DNA of 64,000 nt from Bacteroidales bacterium (lineage in GTDB: Bacteria; Bacteroidota; Bacteroidia; Bacteroidales; UBA932): positions 1 through 64,000 of the forward strand of contig JAFUZO010000028.1 in NCBI GenBank assembly GCA_017476575.1, in the 5' to 3' direction. The notes beneath the pieces are model-generated. The model saw only the letters and a list, made by a program, of their open reading frames with translations. It was not told the origin of the DNA and did no database searches. The stretch's first letter is position 1, and each line of letters opens with the position of its first letter. This document shows positions 7,042-29,766 of this stretch, one piece after another. Position numbers and translations under genes: made by a program.

Positions 7042-10000
7042 ATGGAAATGCCAAAAAACATTGCTGCGAGGCTGTCGGTGCTGCTGTTTTTCCTGCTGGC
7101 GCCCTGTGCGGCGCGGGCGCAGGCCCTCCGTGTGGAGGGCCTGATTACGGACGACGGGGGAGAGCCCCTGGCCGGAGCAATCGTGATGGTGCCGGGACCG
7201 TCCGGAACCCCCAAGGCGACGGCCATGGCCGACCTGGACGGGCGCTACCATATCGAATGCAGCGCTTCCGACCTCCTCGAATACCGCTATCTGGGGATGA
7301 AGGACGTGCAGGAGAAGGTGGACGGCCGGACGCGGATCGACGTCGTGATGCAGCCCGATGTCTCCCAGGTCCTGGACGAGGCCGTGGCCATCGGCTACGG
7401 TTCCGTGCGGCGCGAAGACCTGACCGGCTCCGTCTCCAACGTGAAGATGGCCGAAATCCGGGACAATCCCCTCACCTCCGTCGACCAGGCCCTGCAGGGC
7501 AAGATCGCGGGGGCCGATATCATGACCACCTCGGGCGAGCCGGGAGCCACCACCTCCATCCGCATCCGCGGCACCCGTTCCATCGAGGCGTCCAACGAAC
7601 CACTGATCGTCGTGGACGGCGTCATGGATGCGGTGAGCGACCTGAACGACATCAACCCGGCCGACATCGAGGACATTTCCGTCCTCAAGGACGCCTCCTC
7701 GACGGCCATCTACGGGGCACGGGGTGCCAACGGCGTTATCCTCATCACGACGAAGGCCAGTTCCACCACGGCGTCGTCCAAGCCCAGCATCACCTTCAAG
7801 GCGACGGCCGGTGTCTCCGAACTGCCTTTCAAGCCGGACATCATGAACGCCACGGAGTTCGCACTCTACCGGAACGACTACGCCTATTTCCTCAACCAGT
7901 ACAGTTCCACCCGGCCCGTTTCCTCCATGAGCGTCCCGGACCCCTTCTCCTACGGGGAAGGCACGGACTGGATCGACGAGATCACCCAGGTGGCACCGTA
8001 TCAGAACTACTACTTTTCCGTCAGCGGCGGGAACGCGGCGACGAAGTATTTCTTCTCGGCCAGTTACACCGACAACGAGGGTATCATCAAGAAGACCGGG
8101 GAGAAGCGTGCGACCGACACCTTCTCCGTGAACCACCAGTTGTTCAAGTGGCTCAAAGTGGGCTACAAGATGAGTTTCACCTACCGCCGCACGGAGAATC
8201 CCCTCACCAGGATCGGCGGTACGGGCTGGTGGAATTCGGCCCTGTACCTTTCCCCGCTGATAGGCCCGAGGGACAGTTACAACCCGCTCTATTTCAATGG
8301 CGGCGTCATCAACACCCCGGTTTCCGTCATCGAGAACGAGGAGGACTACTACCGCCGCTTCTCCAACTCCCAGACCTTCTGGGGCGACGCGACCCTCACA
8401 CCTTGGCTCAAGTTCAAGGTTCAGTACAACTTCCTCCAGTTCGACCGCCAGCGTTTCGCCTACAACCAGTCCACCCTCCCCGCCAAGCAGGGGCGCGAGG
8501 GCGGAGACGCCTACCAGGAGTCGCTTCCCGAATATCACCATACCTTCGAGACGAGCCTGAACTTCAACCAGGATTTCAAAGGCGGGCACCATGTGGACGC
8601 CGTGGCCGGGTTCACGGGCTTCGTGATCGACTACAGCCGCATGAGCGCCAGCGGAACGGGCTACCTGGTGGACTCCATGACCTGGAACGACCTGGGCGCC
8701 GTCATGGACAAGGAGACCTATACCATCGACTCCTATGCGCGCTACAAGGAGACCGCCTCTTTCCTCGCCCGGGTCAACTACAACTGGAGCAAACGCTTCT
8801 ACCTCACGGTCACGGGCCGCTTGGACGGTGCATCCAACTTTGCCGACAACCGCAAGTGGGGCTTCTTCCCGTCCGCCTCGGCCAAGTGGAACATCCACAA
8901 CGAGAAGTTCATGCGCGGGGCCAAGGACGTGGACGAACTGTCTTTGCGGGTGAGCGCCGGGCAGACCGGCAACGACGCCATCGGCTACTTCCTCTCGCAG
9001 GCGGCCGTCACCTCTTTCTCCGGCGCCCTGCAATACGGCTCCCGGACCACCTCCTACCGTCCCTCCCGGATTTCCTCCCCGGACCTGACCTGGGAGACCA
9101 CCACCCTCTACAATGTGGGCCTCACCGGAAAGTTCTTCAACAACCGCATCTCCGTCACCGCCGAGGCCTACGATTCGCGCACGAAGGACCTGCTCCTCAA
9201 CGTCTCCGTCCCCAAGAGCACGGGCTATTCCTCCGTGCTCCAGAACTTGGGACTGACGTCGAACAAGGGTTTGGAACTCACCCTGGACACGCGCAACATC
9301 GTTACCCGGGACTTCTCCTGGAACACCTCCTTCACCATCTCCCACAACGACCAGCGGGTGCTGGACATCGGGACCGAGGACTTCGTGTCGGTGTACAAGT
9401 CACCCAACAACAACCCCTACATGATGCTGGGCTATGTGAAGGGATACCCCCTGAACGCCCTCTGGGGCTTCCACTACGCCGGGGTCTGGCATAACCAGGA
9501 GGAGGTGGAGCGCAACGAGGTGACCCATGCCTACGCCGGGCAGACGGCCTCCCGCACGCTGGGCCTGCCCCGCTACGTGGACGTGAACCATGACGGCGTG
9601 CTGAACCAGAGCGACCTCTGCTACCTGGGCAACGCCGACCCCTACGTCTATGGCGGCCTCAACAATTCCTTCCGCTACAAGGGCTTCAAACTCAACATGT
9701 TCTGGACCTACAACCTGGGCGGCAAGATTTTCAACTACACCATGTTCTACATGGCGGGCGGCATCTACACCAACCAGTACCGCTTCATGCTCGACGCCTG
9801 GCATCCCGTGCGCAACCCCGACTCCGACATCCCCCGCGCCGGCAACTACGAGGTGGCCGTGCCCAGCGACTTCATGGTCTTCGACGCCAGTTACCTGCGG
9901 CTTCAGGACCTGAGCCTGAGTTACACCCTCAACCTTTCCCGGAAAACGTTCCTCAAGGACGTGGTCTTCACCCTTTCGGGGAACAACCTCCTTCTGTTCA

Positions 10001-10125
10001 AATACTACAACGGCTTCGACCCTGACGTGTCGTCGGACGCCTCCGGCTCCAAGATCCGCCGGATGGACGTGGGCGCCTATCCCAAGGCCAGGAAGTATGT
10101 TTTCTCCATCCAACTCAGGTATTAG
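7042..10125 (+). CDS. susC: SusC-type TonB-dependent outer-membrane transporter
   Basis: 1027 residues from ATG 7042, the first Met before the signal peptide (LSVLLFFLLAPCAARAQ). Domains: a carboxypeptidase-regulatory-like fold (VEGLITDDGGEPLAGAIV), a TonB-interacting segment (LDEAVAIGYGSVRREDLTGS), a plug domain (LIVVDGVMDA, DIEDISVLKDASSTAIYGA, GANGVILITTK), then a 22-strand barrel ending in a C-terminal aromatic strand (YVFSIQLRY). It imports large oligomers through the outer membrane under the SusD lid. SusD follows after 3 nt. Being the first gene after the promoter, it heads the large operon. The substrate is not readable from the sequence; phosphodiesterases and phosphatases downstream suggest a phosphorylated ligand. 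Confidence 0.95.
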   Translation: MEMPKNIAARLSVLLFFLLAPCAARAQALRVEGLITDDGGEPLAGAIVMVPGPSGTPKATAMADLDGRYHIECSASDLLEYRYLGMKDVQEKVDGRTRIDVVMQPDVSQVLDEAVAIGYGSVRREDLTGSVSNVKMAEIRDNPLTSVDQALQGKIAGADIMTTSGEPGATTSIRIRGTRSIEASNEPLIVVDGVMDAVSDLNDINPADIEDISVLKDASSTAIYGARGANGVILITTKASSTTASSKPSITFKATAGVSELPFKPDIMNATEFALYRNDYAYFLNQYSSTRPVSSMSVPDPFSYGEGTDWIDEITQVAPYQNYYFSVSGGNAATKYFFSASYTDNEGIIKKTGEKRATDTFSVNHQLFKWLKVGYKMSFTYRRTENPLTRIGGTGWWNSALYLSPLIGPRDSYNPLYFNGGVINTPVSVIENEEDYYRRFSNSQTFWGDATLTPWLKFKVQYNFLQFDRQRFAYNQSTLPAKQGREGGDAYQESLPEYHHTFETSLNFNQDFKGGHHVDAVAGFTGFVIDYSRMSASGTGYLVDSMTWNDLGAVMDKETYTIDSYARYKETASFLARVNYNWSKRFYLTVTGRLDGASNFADNRKWGFFPSASAKWNIHNEKFMRGAKDVDELSLRVSAGQTGNDAIGYFLSQAAVTSFSGALQYGSRTTSYRPSRISSPDLTWETTTLYNVGLTGKFFNNRISVTAEAYDSRTKDLLLNVSVPKSTGYSSVLQNLGLTSNKGLELTLDTRNIVTRDFSWNTSFTISHNDQRVLDIGTEDFVSVYKSPNNNPYMMLGYVKGYPLNALWGFHYAGVWHNQEEVERNEVTHAYAGQTASRTLGLPRYVDVNHDGVLNQSDLCYLGNADPYVYGGLNNSFRYKGFKLNMFWTYNLGGKIFNYTMFYMAGGIYTNQYRFMLDAWHPVRNPDSDIPRAGNYEVAVPSDFMVFDASYLRLQDLSLSYTLNLSRKTFLKDVVFTLSGNNLLLFKYYNGFDPDVSSDASGSKIRRMDVGAYPKARKYVFSIQLRY

Positions 10126-10128
10126 CAT

Positions 10129-11631
10129 ATGAAAAGGACCCTATTCACGGCGGCGTTGCTGCTTCCGCTACTTTCCTGCTCTCTCAAAGAGCCGGACGAC
10201 CTGTTCGTAAGCCCCGGCTTCGTGGAAACGCTCCAGCAGGCCGACGCCTGTGTCACCGCCACATACAGCCCCCTCAACCCCGTCTATGCCCTCGGCTTCG
10301 CCATCGCCACCGAGGGATGCACAGACCTCTTCTATATCCAGTCGGGCACGCAGGACGCCCAGATGGACGTGTCCCCTGCGAATGCCCGCTTCGGCAACAC
10401 CGTATGGGAATACGCCTATGCGGGCATCCGCAACGCGAACTACGCGATCTGGGCCATGGACCGTTCCGACATCGACCCGGCGGACCTCGCCCCGCTCTAT
10501 GCGGAGGCGAAGGCGATGCGGGCGTACTGGTTCTACATCCTCACCTCTTTCTTCGGGGATGTCCCTTATTATGAGGACTATGTGGGCGACCGGCCCACCC
10601 TCGACAAGGTGCGGCACCTCCCCCGCATGAGCGCCGTGCAGACGAGGGAAACCCTCATTGCCCAACTGGAAGCATGCGTGGACGACCTGCCCCGAGGACG
10701 GAGTTACGACCTGGGTCTCCAGCGGGCAGGCTGGGCCTTCACCCGGATGCTCATGGCGAAGATGGCCATGTGGAACGCCTGCAAGGACGAATCCCGCGCA
10801 GCGGAGTGGTGGGCCAAGGCGGCCTCGTCCCTGGAAGCCCTGCAGGAAGTGTACGGGGACCTCACGGAGGAGGCCTATCCCCTCGACGACACCGCCTTCC
10901 GCATCAAGGACACGCCGGAGAGCATTTTCGAGATCCAGCATACCTACACCCCGGGCGGCCTTCAGTATTTCAGCAACTACGCCGCCGTCCTCATGCCTTA
11001 TCCCCTGAGCAAGGATGCCGCCGGCAACTGCACCTTCAACGGGGTCAAGGTGGACGAACTGGGCACGGAGTGCATCGTCTGGCAGCCCATGCGCCCCAAT
11101 GCCTACCTCGCCAACGGCCTTTTCATCAACGGAGGCCGTGACCGCCGCGTGGGCCGGTCCATCGTCTACAGTTGGGACGGCAGTTCCTTCTCCCGCAGTT
11201 GGCCGGGCCCCAAGTTCTGGTGCTACGACATGATCAACACCTACGACAGCAACAACTATCCCGTTTTCCGCTATGCCGACGCCGTCCTCATGCTCGCCGA
11301 GACGTACAACGCCCTGGACCGTCCCGACGAGGCGATGGCCCTGCTGAACAGCGTCAAGACCCGCGCCGGGCTCTCCGGGGTCGAGAGTTTTACCACCAAG
11401 GACCGCCTCCTGGATGAAATTCAGATGGAGCGGGGCCGGGAACTGCTGGGCGAGTTCCAGCGCAAGTTCGACCTGGTGCGCTGGGGCATCTGGTTCAAGC
11501 GGACCTACGAATTTTCCGACTACCAGGTCCTCAAGGACAACCTGCGGCCTTGCCACGAATATTATCCCATTCCCGATACGGAAGTGGCCCTTTCAGAGGG
11601 CGCCTTGGACAATAAAGCCTACGAAGAATGA
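10129..11631 (+). CDS. susD: SusD-type surface glycan-binding lipoprotein (RagB/SusD)
   Basis: 500 residues. The lipobox (LLPLLSCSLKEP) places it on the surface as the lid of the preceding SusC. The N-terminal TPR-like helices (AYAGIRNANYAIWAM, AEAKAMRAYWFYIL) and the C-terminal RagB segment (RYADAVLMLAETYN, LLNSVKTRAGL, LLDEIQMERGRELLGE, FDLVRWG) are all present at the usual length. It binds the incoming ligand and passes it to SusC. Its stop codon overlaps the start of the next gene (ATGA), so translation is probably coupled to the DUF5689 proteins. Confidence 0.95.
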   Translation: MKRTLFTAALLLPLLSCSLKEPDDLFVSPGFVETLQQADACVTATYSPLNPVYALGFAIATEGCTDLFYIQSGTQDAQMDVSPANARFGNTVWEYAYAGIRNANYAIWAMDRSDIDPADLAPLYAEAKAMRAYWFYILTSFFGDVPYYEDYVGDRPTLDKVRHLPRMSAVQTRETLIAQLEACVDDLPRGRSYDLGLQRAGWAFTRMLMAKMAMWNACKDESRAAEWWAKAASSLEALQEVYGDLTEEAYPLDDTAFRIKDTPESIFEIQHTYTPGGLQYFSNYAAVLMPYPLSKDAAGNCTFNGVKVDELGTECIVWQPMRPNAYLANGLFINGGRDRRVGRSIVYSWDGSSFSRSWPGPKFWCYDMINTYDSNNYPVFRYADAVLMLAETYNALDRPDEAMALLNSVKTRAGLSGVESFTTKDRLLDEIQMERGRELLGEFQRKFDLVRWGIWFKRTYEFSDYQVLKDNLRPCHEYYPIPDTEVALSEGALDNKAYEE

Positions 11632-14078
11632 GAAAGAGTCTTGTTGGGGTGCCCGTCCTGGCGGCCCTGCTGCTCTCCTGCGAGAGCAAGTTCAGTTTCG
11701 ATGCGCCGCTCTCCCTGGCTAGTTACCGGGTGGAACTGGAGGCGGCCGAGGGGGAGACCCCCGTCATTGTCTATGCCAACGGCGCCTGGACGGCCTCCCT
11801 GTCCGAAGGGGCCGACTGGGCGCGGATCGAGGGCAGTTCCGGAAACGGGCTGGGACAGGTCCGGTTCATCTACGATGCCAATGAGGGCCTGGCCCGGCGG
11901 GCGGTCATCGACTTCCAGTCCGCCGGGGAGACCCGCAGCGTGGCCCTGGTGCAGAAAGCAGGCTTCGGCGACGTCCAGTTCGCCTTCGCCGCCCAGAGCA
12001 TCGAGATTCCGAGGAACGGCGCCTCCGGAGCGCTTTCCTTCGTCACCAACCTCCCGGCGTCGGAAGAGGGGAACATCGTGGCGACGGTCCTCTCCGAGGA
12101 AGGCGGGGAACTTTCCTGGATCGGCGGTCTCCGCCTTTCGGGCTCTTCCGTGGCATTCAGCGTCGAAGCCAACGCTACGGGGGCCGACCGGGCTGCCGTC
12201 ATCACCCTCTCCTACACGGATGTCATGGAGACGGAATACCGTTCCTCCCTCAAACTCACCCAGAAGGACGAAGCCCCGTACCTCAGTTTCCCGGCCGACG
12301 TGACGGGCCTCCGCTACTCCTCCCTCTCCGCCACCGTGACCCTGCCGTTCACCACCAACCTGCTTCCCTACCTGGGGAACATGCTGCAGGCGGCGGACGC
12401 TTCCGCCGCCTGGGCGAAACTCTCTCTCGCCGAGGACGGGATCCCCGCCTTCCTGGTGCAGTTGGAAGAGAACCCAGATGCGGCCTCCCGGCAGGCCACG
12501 CTCACCTTCCCCTTCACCGACGCTTCCGGGGTAACGGCCCCGTTCAGTTATATCCTGGTCCAGAAAGGGAAGACACCCCGCTTCACCTTCGCCGAGGTGA
12601 AGGCCCTCGTGACGGACGCCGCCTATCCCTTCGTCCAGGACGGGGCCCTGGAGGGCGTTGTCATCTCGGACATGGATTCCCCCAACCTGGAGACCGCCCC
12701 CAACTTGACCCCATCCACGCTGGACACGTCCCTGAACGGCGTCACGGGCTATCTCCAGTCCCCCGACGGGACCCAGGGCTTCCGCCTCGTGTTCGCCTCC
12801 CGCAGCGACAACATCCTTCACCGGGGCGACCGCGTCGTCCTGGACCTGAACGGAACGACCGTGACCAAGGAAGAGGAGCCGCTGCGCTATACGATCGAGG
12901 GCGTGAAGGCCTCCGCCCTGGCCGTCGGAGACCGTGAAACCCCGGTCGCCCGGGAAAAGACGCTCGCGGAACTCACTGACACGGACCTCTACACCCTGGT
13001 CAAGGTGAAGGGCCTGGAAATGAGTTTCAAGCACGGGGCCTACACCAACTGCCATGACGGATACGCCCTGTCGGTGGCCGCCCTCAACCCGGCAGGGCAG
13101 AAGACCAACGCCTCGGGCGCGTCCTCGTCGCCGCAGAAGTTCGATACCACCCCGTGCAGCATGACCGATGCGGCGGGGAACGAGGTCAACCTCCTCATCA
13201 ACAACAATGTAACCTGGCGCCGCTACGGGAACGGCGTGCCGCAGGGGACGTGCGATGTCACCGGCATCGTGGTCCATACGGCCCTGGCCCGCTGGGCCAG
13301 GAACGGCGACCTGGGCCGCTACCAGGTCCGCCCCCTGGAAGAGGCCGACATCGCCCCGGCCGGGGACGCCTTCTCCCGGGTCATCGTTTCCTGGTACAAA
13401 GGCTGGGACGACAGCCGGCTCACCGGGGCCGACGCCATCGCCGTAGGACTTCACGGCAACGGTACCATCACCTCCAACGTGGGGACTGCGCAGACCGTGG
13501 TGAACTTCAACGACCTCACCAACTACAACGCCTCTCCCGCCGTCGCGGGCTCCTACAAGGGGCAGGTGAACAACGGCGCCCTCGGCTTTGCGAAGACAGG
13601 CGGTTATTTCTGGGCCTCTAATGACATCGACGACATGGATGCAGCCCCGTGGTTCTGCATCACGTTCTCGACGGAAGGGCTCTCCGGAAGCAATCTCGTC
13701 CTGGTCTGGAGTGCGGCCCAAGGCTCGACGCGATCGGCTACCGACGACATCCAAGGCCCCACGCAGTACCGCGTGGAGTACTCCACGGACGGGACCCGAT
13801 TCACCGCCCTGGACCGGATCTATGCGATGCACCCCATCGTGAGTTGGTCCGATTCGCTGGCGGGCGGCTTCTCCGTCCCCGGGCTGCACCAGTATGTCAC
13901 AAAACTGCCCGCCTCCCTCCTGGGACAGCCCCAGGTGCAGGTCCGCATCCGAGCGGCCTCCAACAAGTCCCTCGACAACGCCTATCTGACCCCGGAAGGC
14001 GGCACCATCAAGAACTATCCCGCTTCCAACTACACCATGGTCCGCTTTGGCGAACTGACGGTCCAATACAACCCCTGA
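11628..14078 (+). CDS. BACON/DUF5689-domain surface lipoprotein
   Basis: 816 residues, lipobox ALLLSCESK. The first 320 or so residues form three BACON-like Ig repeats (for example YRVELEAAEGETPVIVYANGAWTAS, followed by two similar blocks ending in LVQKAG/LTQKDE/LVQKGK). A DUF5689 region follows (ALVTDAAYPFV..LEGVVISDMDSPN, GYLQSPDGTQGFRLVF, DTDLYTLVKVKGLEM, then a second OB-like part with YGNGVPQGTCDVTGIV). The C-terminal 220 residues are a jelly-roll-like part. DUF5689 proteins are often found next to SusCD and nuclease genes in Bacteroidetes and may be substrate-binding accessory proteins. It is the longest of three tandem paralogues. No catalytic motif is visible. Confidence 0.8.
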   Translation: MRKSLVGVPVLAALLLSCESKFSFDAPLSLASYRVELEAAEGETPVIVYANGAWTASLSEGADWARIEGSSGNGLGQVRFIYDANEGLARRAVIDFQSAGETRSVALVQKAGFGDVQFAFAAQSIEIPRNGASGALSFVTNLPASEEGNIVATVLSEEGGELSWIGGLRLSGSSVAFSVEANATGADRAAVITLSYTDVMETEYRSSLKLTQKDEAPYLSFPADVTGLRYSSLSATVTLPFTTNLLPYLGNMLQAADASAAWAKLSLAEDGIPAFLVQLEENPDAASRQATLTFPFTDASGVTAPFSYILVQKGKTPRFTFAEVKALVTDAAYPFVQDGALEGVVISDMDSPNLETAPNLTPSTLDTSLNGVTGYLQSPDGTQGFRLVFASRSDNILHRGDRVVLDLNGTTVTKEEEPLRYTIEGVKASALAVGDRETPVAREKTLAELTDTDLYTLVKVKGLEMSFKHGAYTNCHDGYALSVAALNPAGQKTNASGASSSPQKFDTTPCSMTDAAGNEVNLLINNNVTWRRYGNGVPQGTCDVTGIVVHTALARWARNGDLGRYQVRPLEEADIAPAGDAFSRVIVSWYKGWDDSRLTGADAIAVGLHGNGTITSNVGTAQTVVNFNDLTNYNASPAVAGSYKGQVNNGALGFAKTGGYFWASNDIDDMDAAPWFCITFSTEGLSGSNLVLVWSAAQGSTRSATDDIQGPTQYRVEYSTDGTRFTALDRIYAMHPIVSWSDSLAGGFSVPGLHQYVTKLPASLLGQPQVQVRIRAASNKSLDNAYLTPEGGTIKNYPASNYTMVRFGELTVQYNP

Positions 14079-14080
14079 CA

Positions 14081-16255
14081 ATGAAAAAATTGATCATTCC
14101 GGCCTTTGCGCTGCTTCTCTTCTCTTGCGGATACGACGACATGATGCTCCAGGATGCCGTTGAACTGGGTGCGGTCCAGGAGGTCGTCCTCGCCCGGAAG
14201 GAAGGAGGCGAAGTGGAGATTCCCTACTATGCCAATCTTTCCGGGACCATCCGTCTCCTCGACGAGGCTCCGTGGGCAGACCTGGGCCAGACCACCTTCT
14301 CCTCCGACGGGACGCTCAAGGTCGCCGTGGCGGCGAACGGCGGCATCCGCCGCTTTGCCCGCGTGCTTTTCAGCGCATCGGACGTTGCCCGGAAGGACAC
14401 CGTGCTCCTCCGGCAGGACGGCCTCGTCGACACGTTGTCCGTTTCCACCTCCAGCGTCATCGTCTACAACCGGATGGGCGATACGGAAATCCCCGCCGAA
14501 GTCACCGTGGACCCCGCGTCTGTCAAGGCCACGGTGCGCTACCTGGAGGCCGACGCCGAGCCCTGGGTCACGGCCTGCTCCGTGGACAGGGCGCGCGTGC
14601 GGATCCGGACGGAGGACAACCCTTCCTCCACGGCGGTGAGAAGCGCCGTCCTCACGCTCTCCTGGACCAACGGATGGAACCAGAAGATGCAGCGCAGCAT
14701 CAACCTGACCCAGGCCACGAGCGCCGCCTCGGGCAACCTCATCGGCCTTCCCGTGGACTTCGCGTATGTGCGGGGGCTTGCGGGCGAGGATCCTGTCGTC
14801 ATCAACGACAACATCTGCCTGGAAGGCTATATCGTGAGCGACAGCGCCTCCAGGAACGTGACGGAGAACACCCGGCGCACCTCCACCTCCATCGACTACA
14901 GCGTCACCGACAAGTCCGTCGTCCTGGAAAGCACGGACGGGCGCTACGGCTTCCTGGTCGAGACCGTGAGCGAGGAAGAGAACCGTTTCGTCCCCTACAG
15001 CAAGGTGACGCTCCTCCTTTCCGGAGCGCAGGTCCGGAAATACACGTCCCCGGACCGCTACGTCATATCCAATGTCCGTGCTTCCATGATTGCCTCCTCC
15101 CGGGAGGTGGGCCTGGGAAGCATCCCCGCCAAGAAGATGCGGATCAGCGAACTGGGCGATGAGGACATCTACACCCGGGTCACCCTCACGGACTGCGAGT
15201 TCCCCATCCGGAAGGGCGGGCTCTCCCCGCTCAACGAGGGCTACACCTCCCTGTACAAGGCCGACCGCGTGACCAAGTCCGCCTCCCTCATCCGGGACGT
15301 GGAGGGGAGCAGCCTCTATCTCTACACCAACACCACCTGCCCCTACCGCCGGGACGGCCGCCGCATCGGCAACGGCAGCGGCAGCGTGAGCGGGATCGTG
15401 GTGTCGGAGCCGTACGAGAGTTTTCAGGATGTCGGCCGCTTCCAACTCCGGCACCAGCGCTGGGAGGACCTGGACTTCGCCCCCGACTTTTCCGACGGTT
15501 TCTCCGGCCTCGTCTGCGAATGGCGTTACCTGCGCCCGGGCAACACCGACCGCAGTTGGAGCGCGACCTACGGCAGCGGGACCATGACCCACACCTACGC
15601 CAGTACCTACAGCAGTGCCCTGAACACGCTGTGCTACCCCGTCTACGACATGAGTTACCTGGGGCCCGTCTTCAGCGGCTGCACCAACGAGAACGGCTTC
15701 GGAATCATCCTTGAAGATGGGTCGGATTACGCCTCGGCCTACACGGGGAGCGTGGACAAGGGGCAACTCCTGGCCGGGGCCGGCTGGCCCATGGCTTGGA
15801 TGAAGGAGTACTGGGCAGGCGCCGCAGGCACCTTCCATGCGTGGGAAATCCATTTCTCGACGGAGAACCTGTCCACCGACGTCCTCTCCCTCCAGATCTC
15901 CACGCTCAATGCCTCCCAGGAGGGCCGGAGCCCCGTGCACTGGAAGGTGCAGTGGGCCACCTCCAACGGCGCGGATGCGAAGTGGCAGGATATCGGCACC
16001 TACTCTGTCCCCGACATCGTCCTCTGGACCATGACCCAGCCCTGGCAGAGCGCCGGCTACAAGCCCGTCGACATCCCCCTGCCGTCCGCCATGCTTTCGC
16101 AGGCCGATGTCTATATCCGCCTCACTCCGGCCGATAGTGCTGGGAACACCACCCTGGGCTACTGCGACACCACGTTCGCCAACGGCACGGCGGGGTCTTC
16201 CTCCAAGGCGAACAACGCCCTCAACTATGTGGCCGTAAGATACAACAAGTCATGA
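14081..16255 (+). CDS. DUF5689-domain surface lipoprotein, second paralogue
   Basis: 724 residues from the ATG at 14081, chosen for the lipobox (FALLLFSCGYDD). Two BACON-like Ig repeats come first (EVEIPYYANLSGTIRLL; STSSVIVYNRMGDTEIPAEV), then the DUF5689 part (VVINDNICLEGYIVSDSAS, RYGFLVETV, LGDEDIYTRVTLTDCEF, GNGSGSVSGIVVSEPYE) and a C-terminal carbohydrate-binding-like region (AWEIHFSTENLSTDVLSL, HWKVQWATSNG). It shares the order of the preceding gene with one repeat fewer. Its last 4 bases overlap the next gene. It probably works as an additional surface-binding protein in the same transport complex. Confidence 0.8.
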   Translation: MKKLIIPAFALLLFSCGYDDMMLQDAVELGAVQEVVLARKEGGEVEIPYYANLSGTIRLLDEAPWADLGQTTFSSDGTLKVAVAANGGIRRFARVLFSASDVARKDTVLLRQDGLVDTLSVSTSSVIVYNRMGDTEIPAEVTVDPASVKATVRYLEADAEPWVTACSVDRARVRIRTEDNPSSTAVRSAVLTLSWTNGWNQKMQRSINLTQATSAASGNLIGLPVDFAYVRGLAGEDPVVINDNICLEGYIVSDSASRNVTENTRRTSTSIDYSVTDKSVVLESTDGRYGFLVETVSEEENRFVPYSKVTLLLSGAQVRKYTSPDRYVISNVRASMIASSREVGLGSIPAKKMRISELGDEDIYTRVTLTDCEFPIRKGGLSPLNEGYTSLYKADRVTKSASLIRDVEGSSLYLYTNTTCPYRRDGRRIGNGSGSVSGIVVSEPYESFQDVGRFQLRHQRWEDLDFAPDFSDGFSGLVCEWRYLRPGNTDRSWSATYGSGTMTHTYASTYSSALNTLCYPVYDMSYLGPVFSGCTNENGFGIILEDGSDYASAYTGSVDKGQLLAGAGWPMAWMKEYWAGAAGTFHAWEIHFSTENLSTDVLSLQISTLNASQEGRSPVHWKVQWATSNGADAKWQDIGTYSVPDIVLWTMTQPWQSAGYKPVDIPLPSAMLSQADVYIRLTPADSAGNTTLGYCDTTFANGTAGSSSKANNALNYVAVRYNKS

Positions 16256-17748
16256 AAGGGCTGCTTCTCATCCTGTCTCTGCTGCCGGTGCTCCAGGACG
16301 GGACCGTCCTGGAGGAGACCTTCGTGGAGGGCATCGTGATATCGGCCCCGGCGCATCCCAACCTGGACCAGTCCGTGCAGACCAACTACCGCACGGCCAG
16401 CGCCACGCAGAACAACCGCACCGCGTATATCCAGACGCCGGATGGGGCCCGGGGGCTCAAACTGGTCTTCCAGCACCTGGACCCCGAGGCGCGCAAACTG
16501 GAACGGTTCTCCCACGTGCGGATCAACATCCAGGGTGCGGAGGTCGCGGAGGGCGGCAAGGTGGTGAAGGGCATCCCCAACGGTGCCGTCGTGTCGGTGG
16601 AGCCCGGTTCCCGGGACGATGTTCCGCTGAAGATCCGGCGGGTGCGCGAACTCACCGAAGACGACCTGTACACCTGGGTGAGCATCCCGGACTGCGAATT
16701 CGTCTTCAAGGACGGTTCCTACTGCAACATCCTGGAATCCTATGCGGCCCGTCCCGCCGACAACCGGGCCCTGGGCGGCAACGGCATGATGGGCACGTGG
16801 CAGACCCTCCTGACCGACGACGACGGCGTCCCGCTCTATGCCGTCATCAACTCCCGGGTCCCGTGGCGGCGCAGCGGCAACGGCGTTCCCCAGGGAAAGG
16901 GGACGTTCAGCGGCATCTACGTGCGTTCGGACATCCTGCGCTACGGCAAGGTGTACGCCCCGCAACTGCGTCCGCTGGAGGAGGCGGATTTCGACTTTGC
17001 CTGGGAAGGCCCTTCGTCCTTCAACACCCTCTGCGAATGGAACTGGGACGACAATGTCAAGACCATCCGCACGGAAGAGGGCGAAAAGGACTACATCAAG
17101 CGCCAGAAGGTGCTGCCGGACAAGGGGGAGGGCCGCCTGTATGTCGATTTCGAGGCCTCCACCTACCGGGGCCGGGATGTGAACAACCCCGCCGTCGAGC
17201 CGGACAACGGATACAAGGTGGGCAGCCGGGGACAGGTCCCCTACGGCTCCCTCCAGGTGCGGACGATGGCGAAAAACTGGTGGGACTGGGGCTCCGATTG
17301 CGGCAACGCCTTGGTTGTCAAGTTCTCCCTGGCGGGCATCACGGGCGGGCGCCTCGTCCTGGACTTCTCCTTCGCCGCCGGGGACAATTATTCGGGGAAC
17401 ACCCGCATGTGCCCCGTGTACTGGGGCGTGGAGGTGTCCACGGACGACCGCGCCTATGCCCGCATCGATATCCCCGACATCACCTGCCGGGCACTCCCCT
17501 GGTGGGAACGGGAACTCGACGGGGTCACCTATTACACCTCGGCCGAGGCGGGGATGGGGCTCACCGAGCATCAGGTGGTGCTGCCCTCCTCCCTCTTCGG
17601 GGCGAAGGACGTGTGGGTGCGCATCACCCCGGTGCGGAAGAACGCGACCACCCTCGCGATGTACGGCTCCGACAACGGTGTCCTCCGCCCGAACAGCCAG
17701 TTGTGGACCTATCTGGAATTTGGAACCATAGCCATCCGTTACAAATGA
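16252..17748 (+). CDS. DUF5689-domain protein, short third paralogue
   Basis: 498 residues. It lacks the BACON repeats of its two upstream paralogues and starts almost directly with the DUF5689 part (EETFVEGIVISAPAHPN, AYIQTPDGARGLKLVF, LTEDDLYTWVSIPDCEF, WRRSGNGVPQGKGTFSGIYV). The C-terminal part (VVKFSLAGITGGRLVLDF, YWGVEVSTDDRAYARIDI) resembles the same region of the other two. The short signal (MKGLLLILSLLPVLQDG) has no lipobox Cys, so it may be a soluble periplasmic or secreted form, unlike the two lipoproteins. Translationally coupled on both sides (ATGA overlaps). Confidence 0.75.
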   Translation: MKGLLLILSLLPVLQDGTVLEETFVEGIVISAPAHPNLDQSVQTNYRTASATQNNRTAYIQTPDGARGLKLVFQHLDPEARKLERFSHVRINIQGAEVAEGGKVVKGIPNGAVVSVEPGSRDDVPLKIRRVRELTEDDLYTWVSIPDCEFVFKDGSYCNILESYAARPADNRALGGNGMMGTWQTLLTDDDGVPLYAVINSRVPWRRSGNGVPQGKGTFSGIYVRSDILRYGKVYAPQLRPLEEADFDFAWEGPSSFNTLCEWNWDDNVKTIRTEEGEKDYIKRQKVLPDKGEGRLYVDFEASTYRGRDVNNPAVEPDNGYKVGSRGQVPYGSLQVRTMAKNWWDWGSDCGNALVVKFSLAGITGGRLVLDFSFAAGDNYSGNTRMCPVYWGVEVSTDDRAYARIDIPDITCRALPWWERELDGVTYYTSAEAGMGLTEHQVVLPSSLFGAKDVWVRITPVRKNATTLAMYGSDNGVLRPNSQLWTYLEFGTIAIRYK

Positions 17749-22209: not shown

Positions 22210-22223
22210 GTTGTGACGATCCT

Positions 22224-22313: not shown

Positions 22314-22327
22314 CAGAAAAAGGAAGT

Positions 22328-23232: not shown

Positions 23233-23245
23233 TTGTGCAAAAAAT

Positions 23246-25732
23246 ATGAGAAGAAAACGATTTTGGGCTCCTCTGGCGGTGTGGGCGGTGCTGCTGTCCT
23301 CCTGCGGCAAGGAACTTCCTCCGGTGAACGAGCCGGAGGAAGCGCCTCAGGAGCAAGAGGAAGAGCCGGGACTTCCGGGGATAGGGGACACGTCGGCCCC
23401 GTCGCTGATCAGTGCGGAGATTCCGTCCGCCATCGAGAGCAAGGTGTCGCTGCAGGACTCCGATGCCCCGGGGATGGCGCTTGCCTGGGAGGCGGGGGAC
23501 TGCCTCCGTATCATCGGCACGGGGGCGGCGGAGACGTTCCAGATCGTGGAGGAGGGCAAGACCGCCTCCAAGGCGGGCTTTACGGGAAAGGCCGTGGAAG
23601 GCAGCACCTTCACCGTGCTGTATCCCGGCACGTATGATTCCGAGGCCGCCTGGGAATCACGTTCTTACACCGGCCAGAAACAGACGGGCAACGGCTCCGT
23701 CTCCCATCTTTCCTGGAACGCCAGGATGACCGGCCTGTCCTCCTATTCCTCTCTCATCTTCGCTCCCGCATCCACGGGAACCTTCTCCCAAAACGGCGTG
23801 GTGAAATTCACCTTCAACCTTCCGGAACGGTTCTCCGGCCTGGAGCGGTTGTCCCTCACGGCGCAGGAGGCCGTCTTCCCCACCACCAACAGCGCCGAAG
23901 GTCCGAAGGCGGCGACGCTGTCCCTGGACCTGGAGGACCTGGCCTTCGCGGACGGTTCCCGGGCGGTCACGGCCTACATGATGGCCTCCGCCGCCCCCGT
24001 GCTCCTTGCGGCGGGAACGGAGTACACGCTGACCCTTGCCGGGCCGGGCGGACAGGTCGAGGACGTGGTGAAAACCGTCCCCGAGGGCGGCCTGCAGATC
24101 GGCGGAGGCACCGTCACCGTCATCCACCTGGATGCGAAGGACCTCCAGGAACCCCTGTTCTGGGGCGGAGAGGGAACGGAGAGTGCCCCCTACGAGATCA
24201 AGACCCTGAAGCACCTCCGGAACATGAACGACCTCATTGCCGAGACCAAGGGCGCCTCCACGCTCTTCTTCCGCCTGGTGGACGACATCGACATGACGGA
24301 CGTGACGGACTGGCTGTACAGGAACAACGACGCTTCCCACAACTGGCCCATTGACTTCGACGGTGCGGGGCACAGCATCGTGCATTTCACCATGACACAG
24401 TATTCGGCCTCGCTCTTCGGCGCCCTGGCCGGCTGTGTGCACGACCTGACATTCAAGGACGCCGCCATCCAGACAGCCGAAGCCTCCAACGGCGGCCTGA
24501 TCGCCTACCGTGCGGGCCGCAAGACCGCCTCCATGGACGCGCCGGTGGTCATCCGGAACGTCTCGGTTGAGGGCCTGACCGTCACCGGCGGGACGGCCTC
24601 CGTCGGCGGCCTGGTGGGACGGCTGTCCAACGGCACCCTGGAAAACTGCCACGTCACGGGCCTCGTCCTCACGGGTGAGGACGGCATCGGCGGCCTGGTC
24701 GGCACCGTGGAAGAGGCGCCTTGCACCTTGACGGACTGCACCGTGTCCGGGAGCATCACCTCGACCGGGAAGCAGGCGGGCGGCCTGGTGGGATACAGCA
24801 ATGCGTCCGGGACCCGGTACGACCGCTGCTCCTTCGACGGCACGGTCACGGCGGTCTCCCATGCAGGCGGCCTCATCGGCTATGCCAATTCCCGCTGCGA
24901 CATCGCCTCCTGCAAGACGGCGGGCACCATCAGCGCCACCGCCACCGATTCCATCGTCGGCGGCCTGGTGGGTTGTGCCCACAATTCGTCGGAGGGATGG
25001 GGAACCATCCGGTATTCCCGTTCCAACTGCACCATCAAGGGACTGCGGCGGCTGGGCGGCCTGGTCGGCGAAGCGAGGAACCGCCTTTCCATCGAGGAGA
25101 GCGCCTATGACGGAAGCATCGAAGGCGGCGTCTACCGCTGCGGCGGGGTCATCGGCTGGGTGAACAACAACTTTGCCGAGATGGACGTCCGCATCCTGAA
25201 CTGCCTTTCCGCAGGCACCCTCTCTGCCAGCGGCTGGAGCGGCGGCCTGGTGGGCTGGTCCCCCGGCCTTCTGACCCTGAAGGACTCCTACACCACCATG
25301 GCGGTCAGCGGAAGCGGCAACGGCATGGGCGGCGTCGCGGGGGCCGTGGGCTCCGACTCGGCGGCCATCCGGGCCTCCCAGGAGATCGCGTGCACCGTCG
25401 ACGGATGCCTGGCGTGGAACAGCACCTTCCGGAATGCGGGCACGTCGGCCCAGGCGGGCGCCATCATCGGTGCAAGGGCCTGGAAGGCCCGGTCCGTGGG
25501 CAGGTGCTACCGCAATGCCGCCCTGGATTATTCCGACGGCAACGCTTCCCATACGGCCCTCTCCGACGACCCGGACGCCAGCCCGGATGCCCCGGCGGCG
25601 AAAGACCGCTATGACGGTATCGCCGCAGGGAGCGATGTGACCTGTTCGGCACAGGCGGCGGCCTTGGGCTGGTCGACGGAGGTGTGGAACCTGGACGGGG
25701 CCTATCCTGTGCTGAAAAACCTGGTGCCATGA
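23246..25732 (+). CDS. Fimbrillin-like / GLUG-repeat surface lipoprotein, second paralogue
   Basis: 828 residues, lipobox AVLLSSCGKE. It shares its plan with the gene at 19741: fimbrillin-like sandwich (SKVSLQDSDAPGMALAWEAG, TFTVLYPGTYDS), then GLUG repeats (GGLVGRLS, GGLVGTVE, GGLVGYSN, GGLIGYAN, GGLVGCAH, GGLVGEAR, GGVIGWVN, GGLVGWSP) and the tail CSAQAAALGWSTEVWNLDG. Unlike that paralogue it is GC-rich throughout. Its stop overlaps the start of the next gene, so it belongs to the operon; the dinD cassette was inserted upstream of it. Probably an adhesin or glycan-binding protein. Confidence 0.8.
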   Translation: MRRKRFWAPLAVWAVLLSSCGKELPPVNEPEEAPQEQEEEPGLPGIGDTSAPSLISAEIPSAIESKVSLQDSDAPGMALAWEAGDCLRIIGTGAAETFQIVEEGKTASKAGFTGKAVEGSTFTVLYPGTYDSEAAWESRSYTGQKQTGNGSVSHLSWNARMTGLSSYSSLIFAPASTGTFSQNGVVKFTFNLPERFSGLERLSLTAQEAVFPTTNSAEGPKAATLSLDLEDLAFADGSRAVTAYMMASAAPVLLAAGTEYTLTLAGPGGQVEDVVKTVPEGGLQIGGGTVTVIHLDAKDLQEPLFWGGEGTESAPYEIKTLKHLRNMNDLIAETKGASTLFFRLVDDIDMTDVTDWLYRNNDASHNWPIDFDGAGHSIVHFTMTQYSASLFGALAGCVHDLTFKDAAIQTAEASNGGLIAYRAGRKTASMDAPVVIRNVSVEGLTVTGGTASVGGLVGRLSNGTLENCHVTGLVLTGEDGIGGLVGTVEEAPCTLTDCTVSGSITSTGKQAGGLVGYSNASGTRYDRCSFDGTVTAVSHAGGLIGYANSRCDIASCKTAGTISATATDSIVGGLVGCAHNSSEGWGTIRYSRSNCTIKGLRRLGGLVGEARNRLSIEESAYDGSIEGGVYRCGGVIGWVNNNFAEMDVRILNCLSAGTLSASGWSGGLVGWSPGLLTLKDSYTTMAVSGSGNGMGGVAGAVGSDSAAIRASQEIACTVDGCLAWNSTFRNAGTSAQAGAIIGARAWKARSVGRCYRNAALDYSDGNASHTALSDDPDASPDAPAAKDRYDGIAAGSDVTCSAQAAALGWSTEVWNLDGAYPVLKNLVP

Positions 25733-27984
25733 AAAAGTTTTGGCTTGCTGTATCGGCCTGTATCCTCACCCTCTCCTGCGCCCCGTCCCTGGAGCGCGGT
25801 GCCTGGGAAGAGGACACGTACCGGGCACTGGCATCGCTCCTGGAGGACCGGGACAACCGCGGCGGGTATGCCGTCTTTGACTGCGACAACACCTCCATCC
25901 TCCACGATGTCGCCCATACCATGATGCTCTACCAGATCGAGAACCTGGCTTTCGCCAAGGCCCCGGAACATGGTTTCACGGACGGGTTGCCGGAGGTGGA
26001 TGCCCCCCTCCCCGGCATCGGGACCAGCGCCCGGGAGGAGGGGGCCGCCCTCTCCCGTGCCTATGCGGCCCTCCGCGCCCGCCTGGACGGGGGCTGCCCC
26101 CTTTGGGAAATCCAAGCGGACAGCCTGTATCTCGATTTCAGGGCGCGTTTCCTTGCCCTGTACGCGGCGGTCGGGGCGCATTATGATTACGGAACTCTCT
26201 GCCTGTGGGAACCCTCCCTGGCGGCCGGTTTCAGCAAAGAGGAACGGGAACGCCTCGGACGTGCGAGCCTCCATCACTGGCTCTCGCAGGGACAGGTCTG
26301 GGAAGAGGAATGGGTGTCGCCCGACGGCACGCGCCGCGGGACGGCCATGAAGGGACTGGTGGTGCCGGATGACATGAAGGCCCTCTACCGCGCCCTTTCC
26401 CGTGCAGGCATCGAACCGTACATCTGCTCCGCCTCCCCCGAGTGGCTGGTGGAAGTCCTGGCCCGGGAGTGCTTCGGACTGGATTCCTCCCGGGTTTTCG
26501 GCGTGCGGTTCCAGGAACGGGCGGATGGCTCATGGGCCTATGACGACCAGGTGCCCCAGCCCTTCCTGGAGGGCAAGGTCGCGTGCATCGACCGCTTCAT
26601 CGCCCCGCATCACGGCGGCCGGGAGCCGGTCCTGGTGGGCGGCGACAGCGAAGGGGACGTGGCCATGCTCACCGCCTATCCCGGCATGAAAATGGGGCTG
26701 GTGATGAACCATTTCCGGGGTGGACCGATCGAGGCGCTGGCCAATGCCCATGACGGACGGTATTTCGCGCAGCCTGTGTGCATCAACGCCCGGCAGCGCA
26801 TCCGCCAGGCCTTCACGGAACTTCCTTCCCGTGCGGGCGGCTGCTATCATTCGTATGAGGGCGTCCCCGGTGCGGACACCCCGGCCCCCAAAGGATACAA
26901 GCCCTTCTATATCAGCCATTACGGTCGGCACGGTTCCCGTTATCATACCCCCAAGATGCTGTCCCGTTGCTATCCCCGCGAACTGGAAAGGGCGGCGGCC
27001 CAGGGCCTGCTCACGGAAGAAGGCATCCGGGTCCTGGAGCGCATGAAAGCGGTCTACCAGGCCCACGAGGGGCGGGTCGGGGACCTGAGCGCCCGGGGAG
27101 AAAGGGAGCACCGGGGCATCGGAAGAAGGATGGCACAGCGCTTCCCGGAGGTGTTTGCCGGGCGGGACAGCGTGCGGGCCATCGCAACGCATTATCCGCG
27201 CTGCCAGGCCAGCATGCGTGCCTTCATCGAAGGACTGGGAGCGGACGCGTCCGCCGTCACGGCCGACGCGGGAAGGCAGTATTTCTCCCTCCTCTGCCAT
27301 GAATACATCGACCAGCGGGCCCTGTTTGACGACGTATCGGACTTGCAGTGGGCAATCCGGGAAAGCCGGATTGACCCCGCACCCCTCCAGGAAAGGCTTT
27401 TCCAGGACGGGTTCCGCCCGGACAGCATCCAGATGGTGCTCAAGGGCATCTATATCTACGGCTGCCAGGAAGAGGACTTGGATTTTCCCGAGGAAGGCCG
27501 TCTCTTCGACTTTTTCACCCCCGAGGAACTGTACGGGCAGTGGAGCGTCTATTCAGACGTGGTGTACGGTGAAATGGGCCCGAGCGCCACGTTCGGCGAC
27601 CAGGTGGTTCCCACGGCGAAGGGCCTCCTCGCCCAGTTGCTGGATACGGCATCCGAGGCCGTGGACGCCGGGTCGGACGTGGCGGCGGACCTCCGCTTCG
27701 GCCATGACAACGGCCTTTCCCCCCTGCTGGCGCTGATCGGGATAGAGGGCTATACGGAGCGCGTCCCTGTCGCGGGGTCCTTCCTCGTCTGGCCCAGTTT
27801 CGATCGCATACCCATGGCCTCCAACCTGCAGATGGTCTTCTACCGCAAGGCCGGCCGTCCCGATATCCTTGTGAAACTCCTTTTCAACGAAAGGGAGGCC
27901 CTGATTCCGGGGCTCGACCCCGCCATCGGCCCCTATTACCGGTGGGAGACGCTGGAAACGTACCTGAGAGGCAGAACACGATGA
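25729..27984 (+). CDS. HAD phosphatase / histidine-type phosphatase fusion, lipoprotein
   Basis: 751 residues from ATG 25729 (lipobox ILTLSCAPS). Residues about 35-330 are a HAD hydrolase of the phosphoserine-phosphatase type: motif I FDCDNTS, motif II Ser in YICSASPEW, a Lys in EGKVACIDRF, and motif IV GGDSEGDVAML. Residues about 375-751 are a histidine-phosphatase domain: SHYGRHGSRYHTP (RHGxR nucleophile block) and FGHDNGLSPLL (catalytic HD). Both active sites look intact, so the protein should remove phosphate by two different mechanisms outside the cytoplasm. The second domain matches the partial phosphatase at the window start. The substrate pair is unknown. Coupled by ATGA overlaps to both neighbours. 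Confidence 0.85.
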   Translation: MKKFWLAVSACILTLSCAPSLERGAWEEDTYRALASLLEDRDNRGGYAVFDCDNTSILHDVAHTMMLYQIENLAFAKAPEHGFTDGLPEVDAPLPGIGTSAREEGAALSRAYAALRARLDGGCPLWEIQADSLYLDFRARFLALYAAVGAHYDYGTLCLWEPSLAAGFSKEERERLGRASLHHWLSQGQVWEEEWVSPDGTRRGTAMKGLVVPDDMKALYRALSRAGIEPYICSASPEWLVEVLARECFGLDSSRVFGVRFQERADGSWAYDDQVPQPFLEGKVACIDRFIAPHHGGREPVLVGGDSEGDVAMLTAYPGMKMGLVMNHFRGGPIEALANAHDGRYFAQPVCINARQRIRQAFTELPSRAGGCYHSYEGVPGADTPAPKGYKPFYISHYGRHGSRYHTPKMLSRCYPRELERAAAQGLLTEEGIRVLERMKAVYQAHEGRVGDLSARGEREHRGIGRRMAQRFPEVFAGRDSVRAIATHYPRCQASMRAFIEGLGADASAVTADAGRQYFSLLCHEYIDQRALFDDVSDLQWAIRESRIDPAPLQERLFQDGFRPDSIQMVLKGIYIYGCQEEDLDFPEEGRLFDFFTPEELYGQWSVYSDVVYGEMGPSATFGDQVVPTAKGLLAQLLDTASEAVDAGSDVAADLRFGHDNGLSPLLALIGIEGYTERVPVAGSFLVWPSFDRIPMASNLQMVFYRKAGRPDILVKLLFNEREALIPGLDPAIGPYYRWETLETYLRGRTR

Positions 27985-28097
27985 AACAGTCCTATTTCCC
28001 GCCTTTGTGCGAGGTGACGGAACTGGCGCCGTGCGGTGCCATGCTGGTCCCGGCCTCCCTCCAACCCATGAACCCTCAAGATGATGACTGGGATTAG
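27981..28097 (+). CDS. Small acidic-tailed peptide C
   Basis: 38 residues: MKQSYFPPLCEVTELAP at the start and NPQDDDWD at the end. Its start overlaps the stop of the phosphatase (ATGA) and its end overlaps the next lipoprotein start, so it is translated in line with both. The YxxPxxEVxEL pattern with an acidic tail resembles the two peptides before the GLUG gene. No domain is recognised. Confidence 0.6.
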   Translation: MKQSYFPPLCEVTELAPCGAMLVPASLQPMNPQDDDWD

Positions 28098-29766
28098 ATC
28101 AAGAGAAGCGGCCCTTCTCGCCGCTGCGGTGGCGCTCCTTTTCTCCTGCGGGGAAAAGGGCGTGGCCCCGTCCGATGAGAAACCCTATACCCTCACCCTT
28201 CACGCCGCCTTCGAGCCCCTGACGCGGGCCGGGGCAGACGCCGCGACGGGCAGCATGGCCTGGAGCAGCGGCGACCGTATCGCCGTGGGCCTAGACGACG
28301 GCACGTTCATCCCCTTCGACCTGGTCTCCGGTGCAGGCGGACCGGATGCCGATTTTTCCGGGACCGTCCCCGCCGGCCGGGGCCTTTCCGGCACGGCCTG
28401 GTATCCGTATTGGGAAGGCGCTTATTCCACGGGGGAAAGGACGGTGACGCCGCCCCTTGCCGAGGACTTCGTCTCCGATGCCTACACCCCGGCCGTCATG
28501 AGCGCCCGGGTGGACGGCTCCTCCCTGTCCTTCACCCATGCGGGCGGCATCATCCGCTTCACTGTCAAGGGAATCCCCGCCTCGGCGGTCCGGTTCACCT
28601 TCACCTCGGACGGCGGGGTCTACGGGAACGACAGTTACAGCGTCCTCTTCCCTGCGGGTGGAGCCACGTCGCGTGTTTTCTCCGTCCCGGTGCAGGCGGG
28701 CACGCTCGCCCCCTACACCATTTCCCTGTCCAACGCGGCGGATGATGTCCTGGTTTCGAAGACCAAGGGCTCCGCGACCGAGGTGGAGCGCTGCGACCTG
28801 CGCCTCCTCACGCCGCTGGAGGTGGTCTTCGCGGACTCCTTCCGCGTGGTGTGCTGGAACATCCTCAACGGGATGGAGGCGGATTATGACAACGATTATG
28901 ACAACCTCGTCGCCTGGGTCAACGCCCTTTCTCCCGACGTGCTGGTGCTCACGGAGTCCAAGCCTTTCAACAAGAGTTCCTTGGAAAAGCGCGTCGCCAC
29001 ACTGTTCGCGGCAAGGATGAAGGCCCGGGCCGCCCGCTGGGGCCATGGACAGGTCGCGATCGTCAACATCGACAATTACCCGGTCACGATTACGTCGGCC
29101 CATCCCCTCACGGTCCAGTCGTTGCTGACAGACAAGGACTTCACGTCCCACGGAGCGGTCCATGTGAGCACGGGCGGGTATGAAATCGTGGGGCTGCACC
29201 TCCAGCCGACGCTGGACACGGGCTTCGACGCCGACGTCACCACCAAGTATGCGTATTATGGCGCCCGCCGGAAGGCGGAGTTCGCGTACATCCTGGAGGA
29301 GACGATGGCCGCCTGCCCGGACCGGAAAGACTGGATCTTTGCGGGCGACTTCAACAGTTACTCCCTCAAGGACAGGGGCGCCAGAAGCCCGTACGGAGGG
29401 GCTACGGCCTATTCCTATCCCGACGAGGACGGGCAGGTATCGTCCGCCTACGGGGTGTATGACGCCATCATTGGAAGCGGACTGGCCGATGTGCTCTATG
29501 ATTTCAACGCCGGCGCTTTCCAGCCCACGATGTATCACGGGCGCTCCCGCATCGACTATTTCTTCGCCACCCCCGGCGTCTGTTCGCGGGTGAAGCGGGC
29601 CGAGGTCGTCCGGGGCGGTTTCCCGGGGGACTACAGTCCGGACCTGGAACAGAACCCCTCCGACCATTTCCCCATCCTGATGGACATCGCTGACTATGCC
29701 TTCAAGGTCCTGGACGGCTATGACACCCTCAACGACTGGGAAGACGGTGCCGCACTTGAGGAATAA
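28081..29766 (+). CDS. Fimbrillin-like / EEP phosphodiesterase lipoprotein
   Basis: 561 residues; start at 28081 or 28084; lipobox ALLFSCGEK. Residues about 30-245 are fimbrillin-like (MAWSSGDRIAVGLDDG, GTAWYPYWEGAY). From about 255 an EEP domain keeps all key residues: CWNILNGM (Asn), VLTESK (Glu), VGLHLQP (His), AGDFNSYSL (Asp/Asn), RIDYFFA (Asp) and PSDHFP (Asp-His). It should be a surface-anchored nuclease or phosphodiesterase, and is the second EEP enzyme in this operon, with a different N-terminal module. Peptide C overlaps its start. Confidence 0.8.
   Translation: MMTGIRSREAALLAAAVALLFSCGEKGVAPSDEKPYTLTLHAAFEPLTRAGADAATGSMAWSSGDRIAVGLDDGTFIPFDLVSGAGGPDADFSGTVPAGRGLSGTAWYPYWEGAYSTGERTVTPPLAEDFVSDAYTPAVMSARVDGSSLSFTHAGGIIRFTVKGIPASAVRFTFTSDGGVYGNDSYSVLFPAGGATSRVFSVPVQAGTLAPYTISLSNAADDVLVSKTKGSATEVERCDLRLLTPLEVVFADSFRVVCWNILNGMEADYDNDYDNLVAWVNALSPDVLVLTESKPFNKSSLEKRVATLFAARMKARAARWGHGQVAIVNIDNYPVTITSAHPLTVQSLLTDKDFTSHGAVHVSTGGYEIVGLHLQPTLDTGFDADVTTKYAYYGARRKAEFAYILEETMAACPDRKDWIFAGDFNSYSLKDRGARSPYGGATAYSYPDEDGQVSSAYGVYDAIIGSGLADVLYDFNAGAFQPTMYHGRSRIDYFFATPGVCSRVKRAEVVRGGFPGDYSPDLEQNPSDHFPILMDIADYAFKVLDGYDTLNDWEDGAALEE

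Follow-up and report, generated by a model that had tools for sequence, protein, structure and literature searches.

Which substrate is captured by a SusCD locus that encodes both phosphohydrolases and glycoside hydrolases? We asked this of a locus in a Bacteroidales genome (GenBank assembly GCA_017476575.1; 2.62 Mb, 97% complete, 60% GC). The window, meaning the whole stretch of 64,000 nucleotides that we analyzed, is the start of contig JAFUZO010000028.1 (C80). (Labels such as G252 and C65 denote comparison genomes and their contigs; the genome with the window is G000, and D1-D3 are the three DUF5689-type proteins of the locus.) An initial annotation had placed the locus at 7042-29766 and had described SusC and SusD, a hybrid two-component sensor/regulator (HTCS), and a fusion of a HAD phosphatase to a histidine acid phosphatase (HAP). 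All of the genes that it named are present, matches to Pfam and NCBIfam agree with these assignments, and the motifs of the fusion are complete. The locus actually extends from 2129 to 34198 (Table 1) and so takes in the HTCS, a GH43 protein, a GH3 protein, and a GH39/GH43 protein, which lie outside the coordinates first given. As we explain below, its substrate likely bears phosphate, and glycerol phosphate is our leading candidate.

A SusCD clade with DUF5689 and EEP genes

We searched named genomes with a SusD profile, took the 18 loci at 35-46% SusD identity as the clade, and compared them to 62 loci at 30% identity or less; the gene caller and the profiles were identical for both sets. 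DUF5689 is present in 17 of the 18 clade loci and EEP is present in 14, versus none of the 62 others in either case. The 18 loci span Bacteroidales, Sphingobacterium, Pedobacter, Parapedobacter, Chitinophaga, and others. Within the genus, all 42 clade loci that are flanked on each side by 5.5 kb or more contain DUF5689, and 41 of them have an EEP gene within 8 kb. In G000 itself, EEP genes lie within 8 kb of all five clade SusDs, versus 4 of the 36 other SusDs. And of the 150 EEPs in a further set of 12 genomes, 18 have a SusCD-type DUF5689 no more than 12 kb away, where about 3 were expected. A caveat is that the genomes behind these counts are related to one another, and P values therefore treat them as more independent than they are.

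The usual order in the clade is EEP, a BACON-like lipoprotein, SusC, SusD, D1, and D2. In soil Sphingobacteriales, it is a sigma factor, an anti-sigma-like protein, SusC, SusD, EEP, D1, and D2. Across the clade, glycoside hydrolases vary, and most loci have no recognized one nearby, while EEP and DUF5689 persist. What is new here is the near-constant presence of DUF5689 and EEP genes in one SusCD clade, whose members range from Bacteroidales of the gut to Sphingobacteriales of the soil.

Phosphohydrolases of several unrelated folds cluster at this clade far above chance, and therefore a phosphate-bearing substrate is likely. This part of the initial proposal, which was a phosphodiester polymer (DNA, RNA, or a phosphorylated glycan), survives. 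DNA and RNA have no locus-specific support, and the relatives point to glycerol phosphate instead.

Glycerol-phosphate genes in related operons

Six genomes have orthologous loci, as judged by SusD identity: G252, G240, and G151 (73-82%) and G267, G145, and G237 (57-60%). In the first three, nine genes from the HTCS to the first GLUG gene are in the same order as in the window. In all six, the order HTCS-GH43-SusCD-D1-D2-D3-BNR/EEP1 is kept in whole or in part, where the contig allows. HTCS orthologs adjoin the locus in G252, G240, G151, G267, and G145, and GH43 orthologs (46-83% identity) are found beside SusC or the HTCS in five species. Together with the counts for the genus, the nine-gene order indicates that the grouping is beyond chance. 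The GH43, GH3, and GH39 genes belong to the same conserved locus, as was first thought.

Genes for glycerol phosphate metabolism appear in the operons of several relatives. In G151, the genes for NPP, HAD, EEP2, GpsA, GlpT, and a GDPD/GH2 protein form a run on the same strand and are separated by -4 to 86 bp; G240 has the same run without the HAD. (Glycerophosphodiesterases fused to a GH2 domain set are encoded at L045:8364-10979, minus strand, and L043:6154-8772, plus strand.) In G145, GpsA and GlpT adjoin EEP2 but are convergent with it. A more distant operon of the same clade (G268:C37, about 96-120 kb; SusC 47% and SusD 36% identical) encodes three DUF5689 proteins, an S1/P1-nuclease-like protein, three GDPDs, GpsA, an Fe-ADH_2 protein, GlpT, and GlpA-like and GlpB-like proteins. 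The Fe-ADH_2 protein is of a type that we take to be the glycerol-1-phosphate dehydrogenase family, and a protein of the same type is encoded between D2 and an EEP in a paralogous locus of G000 (C65). Two further clade loci, G240:C8 and G082:C1, end in GH31-GlpT-GDPD. The gene content of these operons suggests that at least part of the clade releases glycerol phosphate as a product.

Our best single guess, with a probability of roughly 0.4, is that the window's locus is an HTCS-controlled SusCD operon for a teichoic-acid-like glycan or polymer that carries glycerol phosphate. We favor glycerol phosphate because the operons of close relatives run directly from EEP2 into genes for a glycerol-3-phosphate dehydrogenase, a GlpT-type antiporter, and a GDPD-GH2 protein. 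The operon would capture, trim, and import the phosphate-bearing glycan. SusD and the DUF5689/jelly-roll lipoproteins would bind it at the cell surface, and the GH43, GH3, and GH39/GH43 proteins, given their families, would take off sugar substituents. From their families, their nearest solved relatives, and their complete active sites, we predict that EEP2 opens phosphodiester links and that EEP1 and HAD/HAP remove the remaining terminal phosphates. In the window's species, which lacks Glp-type genes at the locus, the fused HAP domain might dephosphorylate the product instead.

Several observations weigh against glycerol phosphate. GDPD, GlpT, and the glycerol-3-phosphate dehydrogenase are present in the orthologous operons of G151 and G240, but GlpT, GpsA, and GDPD are found neither in the window's locus nor in that of G252. 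In G145, the GpsA-GlpT pair is on the opposite strand from EEP2. The GlpT and GpsA matches are below the NCBIfam cutoffs (GlpT is assigned at the level of the subfamily), and GpsA often serves lipid synthesis. The nearest characterized relative of EEP1 acts on mannose 6-phosphate, not glycerol phosphate; the modeled fold of EEP2 is nearest to DNA-acting EEPs; and the MINPP-like HAP domain could act on inositol phosphates. Finally, GDPD shows no enrichment near DUF5689 loci in 13 genomes that were selected for the quality of their assemblies (2/79, with 1.7 expected). No general association of GDPD with the clade was found in this test, so glycerol phosphate belongs to some members only. A few operons suggest it, which makes it a lead and not a rule that holds across the clade.

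The DUF5689 proteins and the phosphohydrolases

The initial count of three DUF5689 proteins holds by homology. D1 and D2 score above the Pfam cutoff for DUF5689 (PF18942). D3 has no match in Pfam, yet its profile aligns with D1, D2, and their homologs. In a model of D3 that was built with 23 relatives (pLDDT 79.5), the C-terminal domain is a predicted jelly roll that resembles CBM4 and CBM22 (for CBM4-2, Z = 11.1 over 151 residues, rmsd 3.1). The DUF5689 half of the model has no structural match, and a DUF5689 profile search of the PDB found nothing significant.

Both EEP enzymes have the full N/E/H/DxN/D/SDH catalytic set and their N-terminal parts differ, as was initially described: EEP1 begins with a propeller that matches sialidase-like structures (such as 1eur), and EEP2 begins with a weakly GLUG-like region. 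The best PDB relatives of EEP1's EEP domain are 3g6s (1.5e-34) and the mannosyl-6-phosphatase 4c1r from B. theta (3.6e-24; 3mpr also matches significantly). 3g6s is closer, and its substrate is uncharacterized. By sequence, then, the closest characterized relative of EEP1 is a mannosyl-6-phosphatase, which is a monoesterase. Since EEP1 has no lipobox, it is probably periplasmic. These findings do not support the initial picture of two phosphodiesterases that cut at the surface. No PDB entry is close to EEP2 in sequence. Its EEP domain is well modeled and resembles ExoIII/APE-type structures (Z = 22.8-24.8) as well as LINE-1 endonucleases, but the EEP entries of the PDB are mainly of the ExoIII/APE type, which makes this ranking weak evidence. 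(In a paralogous clade locus, L001:8318-10090 on the minus strand encodes a protein with two tandem EEP domains.)

The HAD/HAP fusion retains the motifs DxDNT, CSAS, K, GDSxxD, RHGxR, and HD, and both halves are complete in their motifs. Its relatives in the PDB are the MINPP-type phosphatases 7r5y (3.5e-47) and 4fdt, the HAD 4gxt (6.7e-26), and, weakly, the PchP-type HAD 4as2. These enzymes share catalytic motifs with the two halves, but unlike them, HAD and HAP are joined here in one lipoprotein. Of the orthologous loci, just those of G000 and G252 have the fusion (67% identity); G151 has HAD alone, and the HAP domain is missing from 4 of the 5 orthologous loci that reach far enough. In a sample of 151 genomes from the genus, only three further genomes have a match, to the HAD half alone. 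In 394 other genomes from the phylum, no fusion was found at E ≤ 1e-60. The G000 genome has about 10 matches to HAP and 22 to EEP. One of its HAPs is cut by the start of the contig: its C-terminal part is at 3-788 (plus strand) and is 36-39% identical to the HAP of the locus.

Alternative substrates

The locus could instead be a polysaccharide utilization locus (PUL) for a plant, fungal, or bacterial glycan that contains pentose or galactofuranose and bears sugar phosphates. EEP1 and HAD/HAP would strip phosphomonoesters, in the manner of the B. theta mannosyl-6-phosphatase in the yeast-mannan system, and no diester polymer would be involved. We think this is somewhat unlikely. The relatives of EEP1 (3g6s and 4c1r) are consistent with it, as are the two GH43 domains, the GH3, and the GH39 of the locus, the HTCS regulator, and the modeled similarity of D3's C-terminus to CBM4/CBM22 binders of xylan and xyloglucan. 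Also, genes for GH115, a glucuronoyl esterase, and alpha-galactosidase-like proteins are found in sibling loci. However, EEP2 is of the diesterase type, as are NPP and GDPD from the relatives, and most clade loci keep EEP and DUF5689 even though they have no recognized glycoside hydrolase nearby. Furthermore, GH92, GH76, and GH125 are absent from the Pfam matches of the window's genes that were scanned.

Scavenging of nucleic acids or nucleotides, with EEP2 as a secreted nuclease and NPP and HAD/HAP as nucleotidases, seems improbable. It would fit with the modeled resemblance of EEP2 to ExoIII, APE, and LINE-1 endonucleases, with the bias in the PDB that we mentioned above. In Riemerella, DNA uptake has been linked to a protein with DUF5689 (PMC8459023), and in G000, the closest standalone homolog of the HAD adjoins SusCD, a ribokinase, an ADP-ribosylglycohydrolase, and an NPP. 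But homologs of that ribokinase and ADP-ribosylglycohydrolase are found neither in the locus nor in the clade loci, and the GH43, GH3, and GH39 genes would be left unexplained. Nucleic acid as the main substrate was set aside: there are no nucleoside genes, and ribokinase- or nucleosidase-type genes are not at the locus. We also see little chance that this is a Pho-controlled phosphate-scavenging system (a phosphate utilization system, PUS) that would take up organophosphates of any kind, or that the MINPP-like domain makes it a system for phytate. In Flavobacterium, PUS loci do have phosphatases and diesterases alongside SusCD (PMC8115612), and the relatives of the HAP domain (7r5y and 4fdt) are MINPPs. 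On the other side are the HTCS, the conserved CAZymes (carbohydrate-active enzymes), and the patchy presence of HAP. The initial annotation had asked about a PhoB box, and searching with only the E. coli consensus turned up no pho-box-like site in the intergenic region before susC. Phytate, also raised initially, has no locus-specific support, and we set it aside as the substrate, as the HAP domain is present only in G000 and G252 among the orthologous loci. We considered a sphingolipid or glycosyl inositol phosphorylceramide since EEP, HAP, and pentose-acting glycoside hydrolases would fit, but no gene or paper supports this.

Comparison to known systems

The initial annotation could not name such a combined system. 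In part, one has a name: in the PUS (PusCD) of Flavobacterium, which is the closest described system, SusCD is co-located with phosphomonoesterases and phosphodiesterases and is induced by low phosphate (PMC8115612). The PUS was described as unlike PULs in that it has no CAZymes, and its enzymes are named as PhoA, calcineurin-like, and PLC-like (PMC8115612). Similarly, the window's SusCD shares an operon with EEP1, EEP2, and HAD/HAP. Unlike the PUS, the window's locus has CAZymes (two GH43s, GH3, and GH39), an HTCS, DUF5689 proteins, and EEPs. So SusCD with phosphatases and diesterases was already known, and the hybrid with CAZymes, HTCS, DUF5689, and EEP is new.

The locus also resembles HTCS-controlled PULs, as it has SusCD, CAZymes, and an HTCS together, and these are conserved in its relatives. 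The B. theta mannosyl-6-phosphatase 4c1r, which we take to belong to a yeast-mannan system, is like EEP1 in its EEP domain and in being a phosphatase inside a SusCD locus. In contrast to 4c1r and the yeast alpha-mannan PUL, EEP1 is fused to a sialidase-like propeller, and no mannan-type glycoside hydrolase families are among the Pfam matches of the window's scanned genes. In Riemerella anatipestifer, a DUF5689/choice-of-anchor J protein is linked to natural transformation, and a neighboring gene encodes an outer-membrane protein (PMC8459023). That protein shares its DUF5689 domain with D1-D3, but no EEP or SusD is reported beside its gene (PMC8459023).

Features of the locus and its surroundings

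Table 1. Features of the locus, with positions in the window.
Feature	Position	Strand	Basis
HTCS hybrid two-component sensor/regulator	2129..5767	-	Pfam Reg_prop, Y_Y_Y, HisKA, HATPase_c, Response_reg, HTH_18
GH43 lipoprotein	5889..6953	+	Pfam PF04616
susC Bacteroidetes-type -7 promoter element TATCTTTG	7010..7017	+	TAnnTTTG kept in G252, G240, G151
SusC TonB-dependent transporter	7042..10125	+	TIGR04056, 780 bits
SusD lipoprotein, defines DUF5689/EEP-associated clade	10129..11631	+	Pfam SusD_RagB; clade analysis
D1: BACON + DUF5689 + jelly-roll lipoprotein	11628..14078	+	Pfam over cutoff; alignment
D2: DUF5689 + jelly-roll lipoprotein	14081..16255	+	Pfam (over cutoff in genome scan); alignment
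D3: DUF5689-like + CBM4/CBM22-like jelly roll, no lipobox	16252..17748	+	Homology to D1/D2; model
EEP1: sialidase-like BNR propeller + EEP	17745..19448	+	Pfam BNR_2, Exo_endo_phos; PDB matches
GLUG protein 1, lipoprotein	19741..22209	+	Pfam Glug
GLUG protein 2, lipoprotein	23246..25732	+	Pfam Glug
HAD (4gxt/PchP-like) + histidine acid phosphatase (MINPP-like) fusion	25729..27984	+	Pfam; PDB matches
EEP2: lipoprotein, ExoIII/APE-like EEP domain	28081..29766	+	Pfam; structure model
GH3 lipoprotein	29784..31952	+	Pfam; best NCBIfam is alpha-L-arabinopyranosidase type, below cutoff
GH39-like + GH43 two-domain protein	31949..34198	+	Pfam

The operon is tightly packed, with 4-bp overlaps at SusD/D1, D2/D3, D3/EEP1, GLUG2/HAD-HAP, and GH3/GH39-43. 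The two GLUG proteins, initially called adhesins, do match Pfam's Glug and are at most putative adhesins. Between them, at 22307-23170 (plus strand), is a Bro-N (DinD/antirepressor-like) open reading frame that the initial annotation did not mention and whose codon score is poorly host-like. The orthologous loci lack it, and it looks like a recent insertion.

Upstream of susC, at about 6960-6985, a T-rich element with GGTAC is kept in G252, G240, and G151; it is a possible regulator site. An inverted repeat (GGGTTATC/GATAACCC) at 7006-7034 was dropped because the relatives do not keep its left arm.

Downstream of the locus, 34302-54011 holds a sialic-acid-type cluster (NanA, an epimerase, NanM, a second SusCD, a SASA esterase, and an MFS protein) and two M64 peptidases. 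Elsewhere in the genome, a SusCD locus at G000:C50 (L008), 5191-15146, encodes a ribokinase, an ADP-ribosylglycohydrolase, a type I phosphodiesterase, and a HAD that is 53% identical to the window's HAD. Its apparent role is to scavenge ribose or nucleotides. Also, L008:440-2392 (minus strand) is a single frame in which a part similar to ureide permeases and sugar transporters is joined to an EEP domain.

Implications

A broader idea is that the clade with DUF5689 and EEP is a distinct, phylum-wide class of outer-membrane importers for phosphate-linked substrates, with DUF5689/jelly-roll proteins as the surface binders, and that the window's branch eats a teichoic-acid-like glycerol-phosphate glycan from the walls of Gram-positive bacteria in the rumen. 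As a whole, we consider this unlikely. Within partial coverage of the literature, we found no paper on such a teichoic-acid-like locus in Bacteroidota. If the glycerol-phosphate reading is true, then Bacteroidota would possess loci that are specialized for feeding on teichoic-acid-like polymers. More generally, this clade of SusCD importers, which ranges from the ruminant gut to soil, has a testable signature (DUF5689 with EEP) and a candidate chemistry, namely phosphate-linked substrates.

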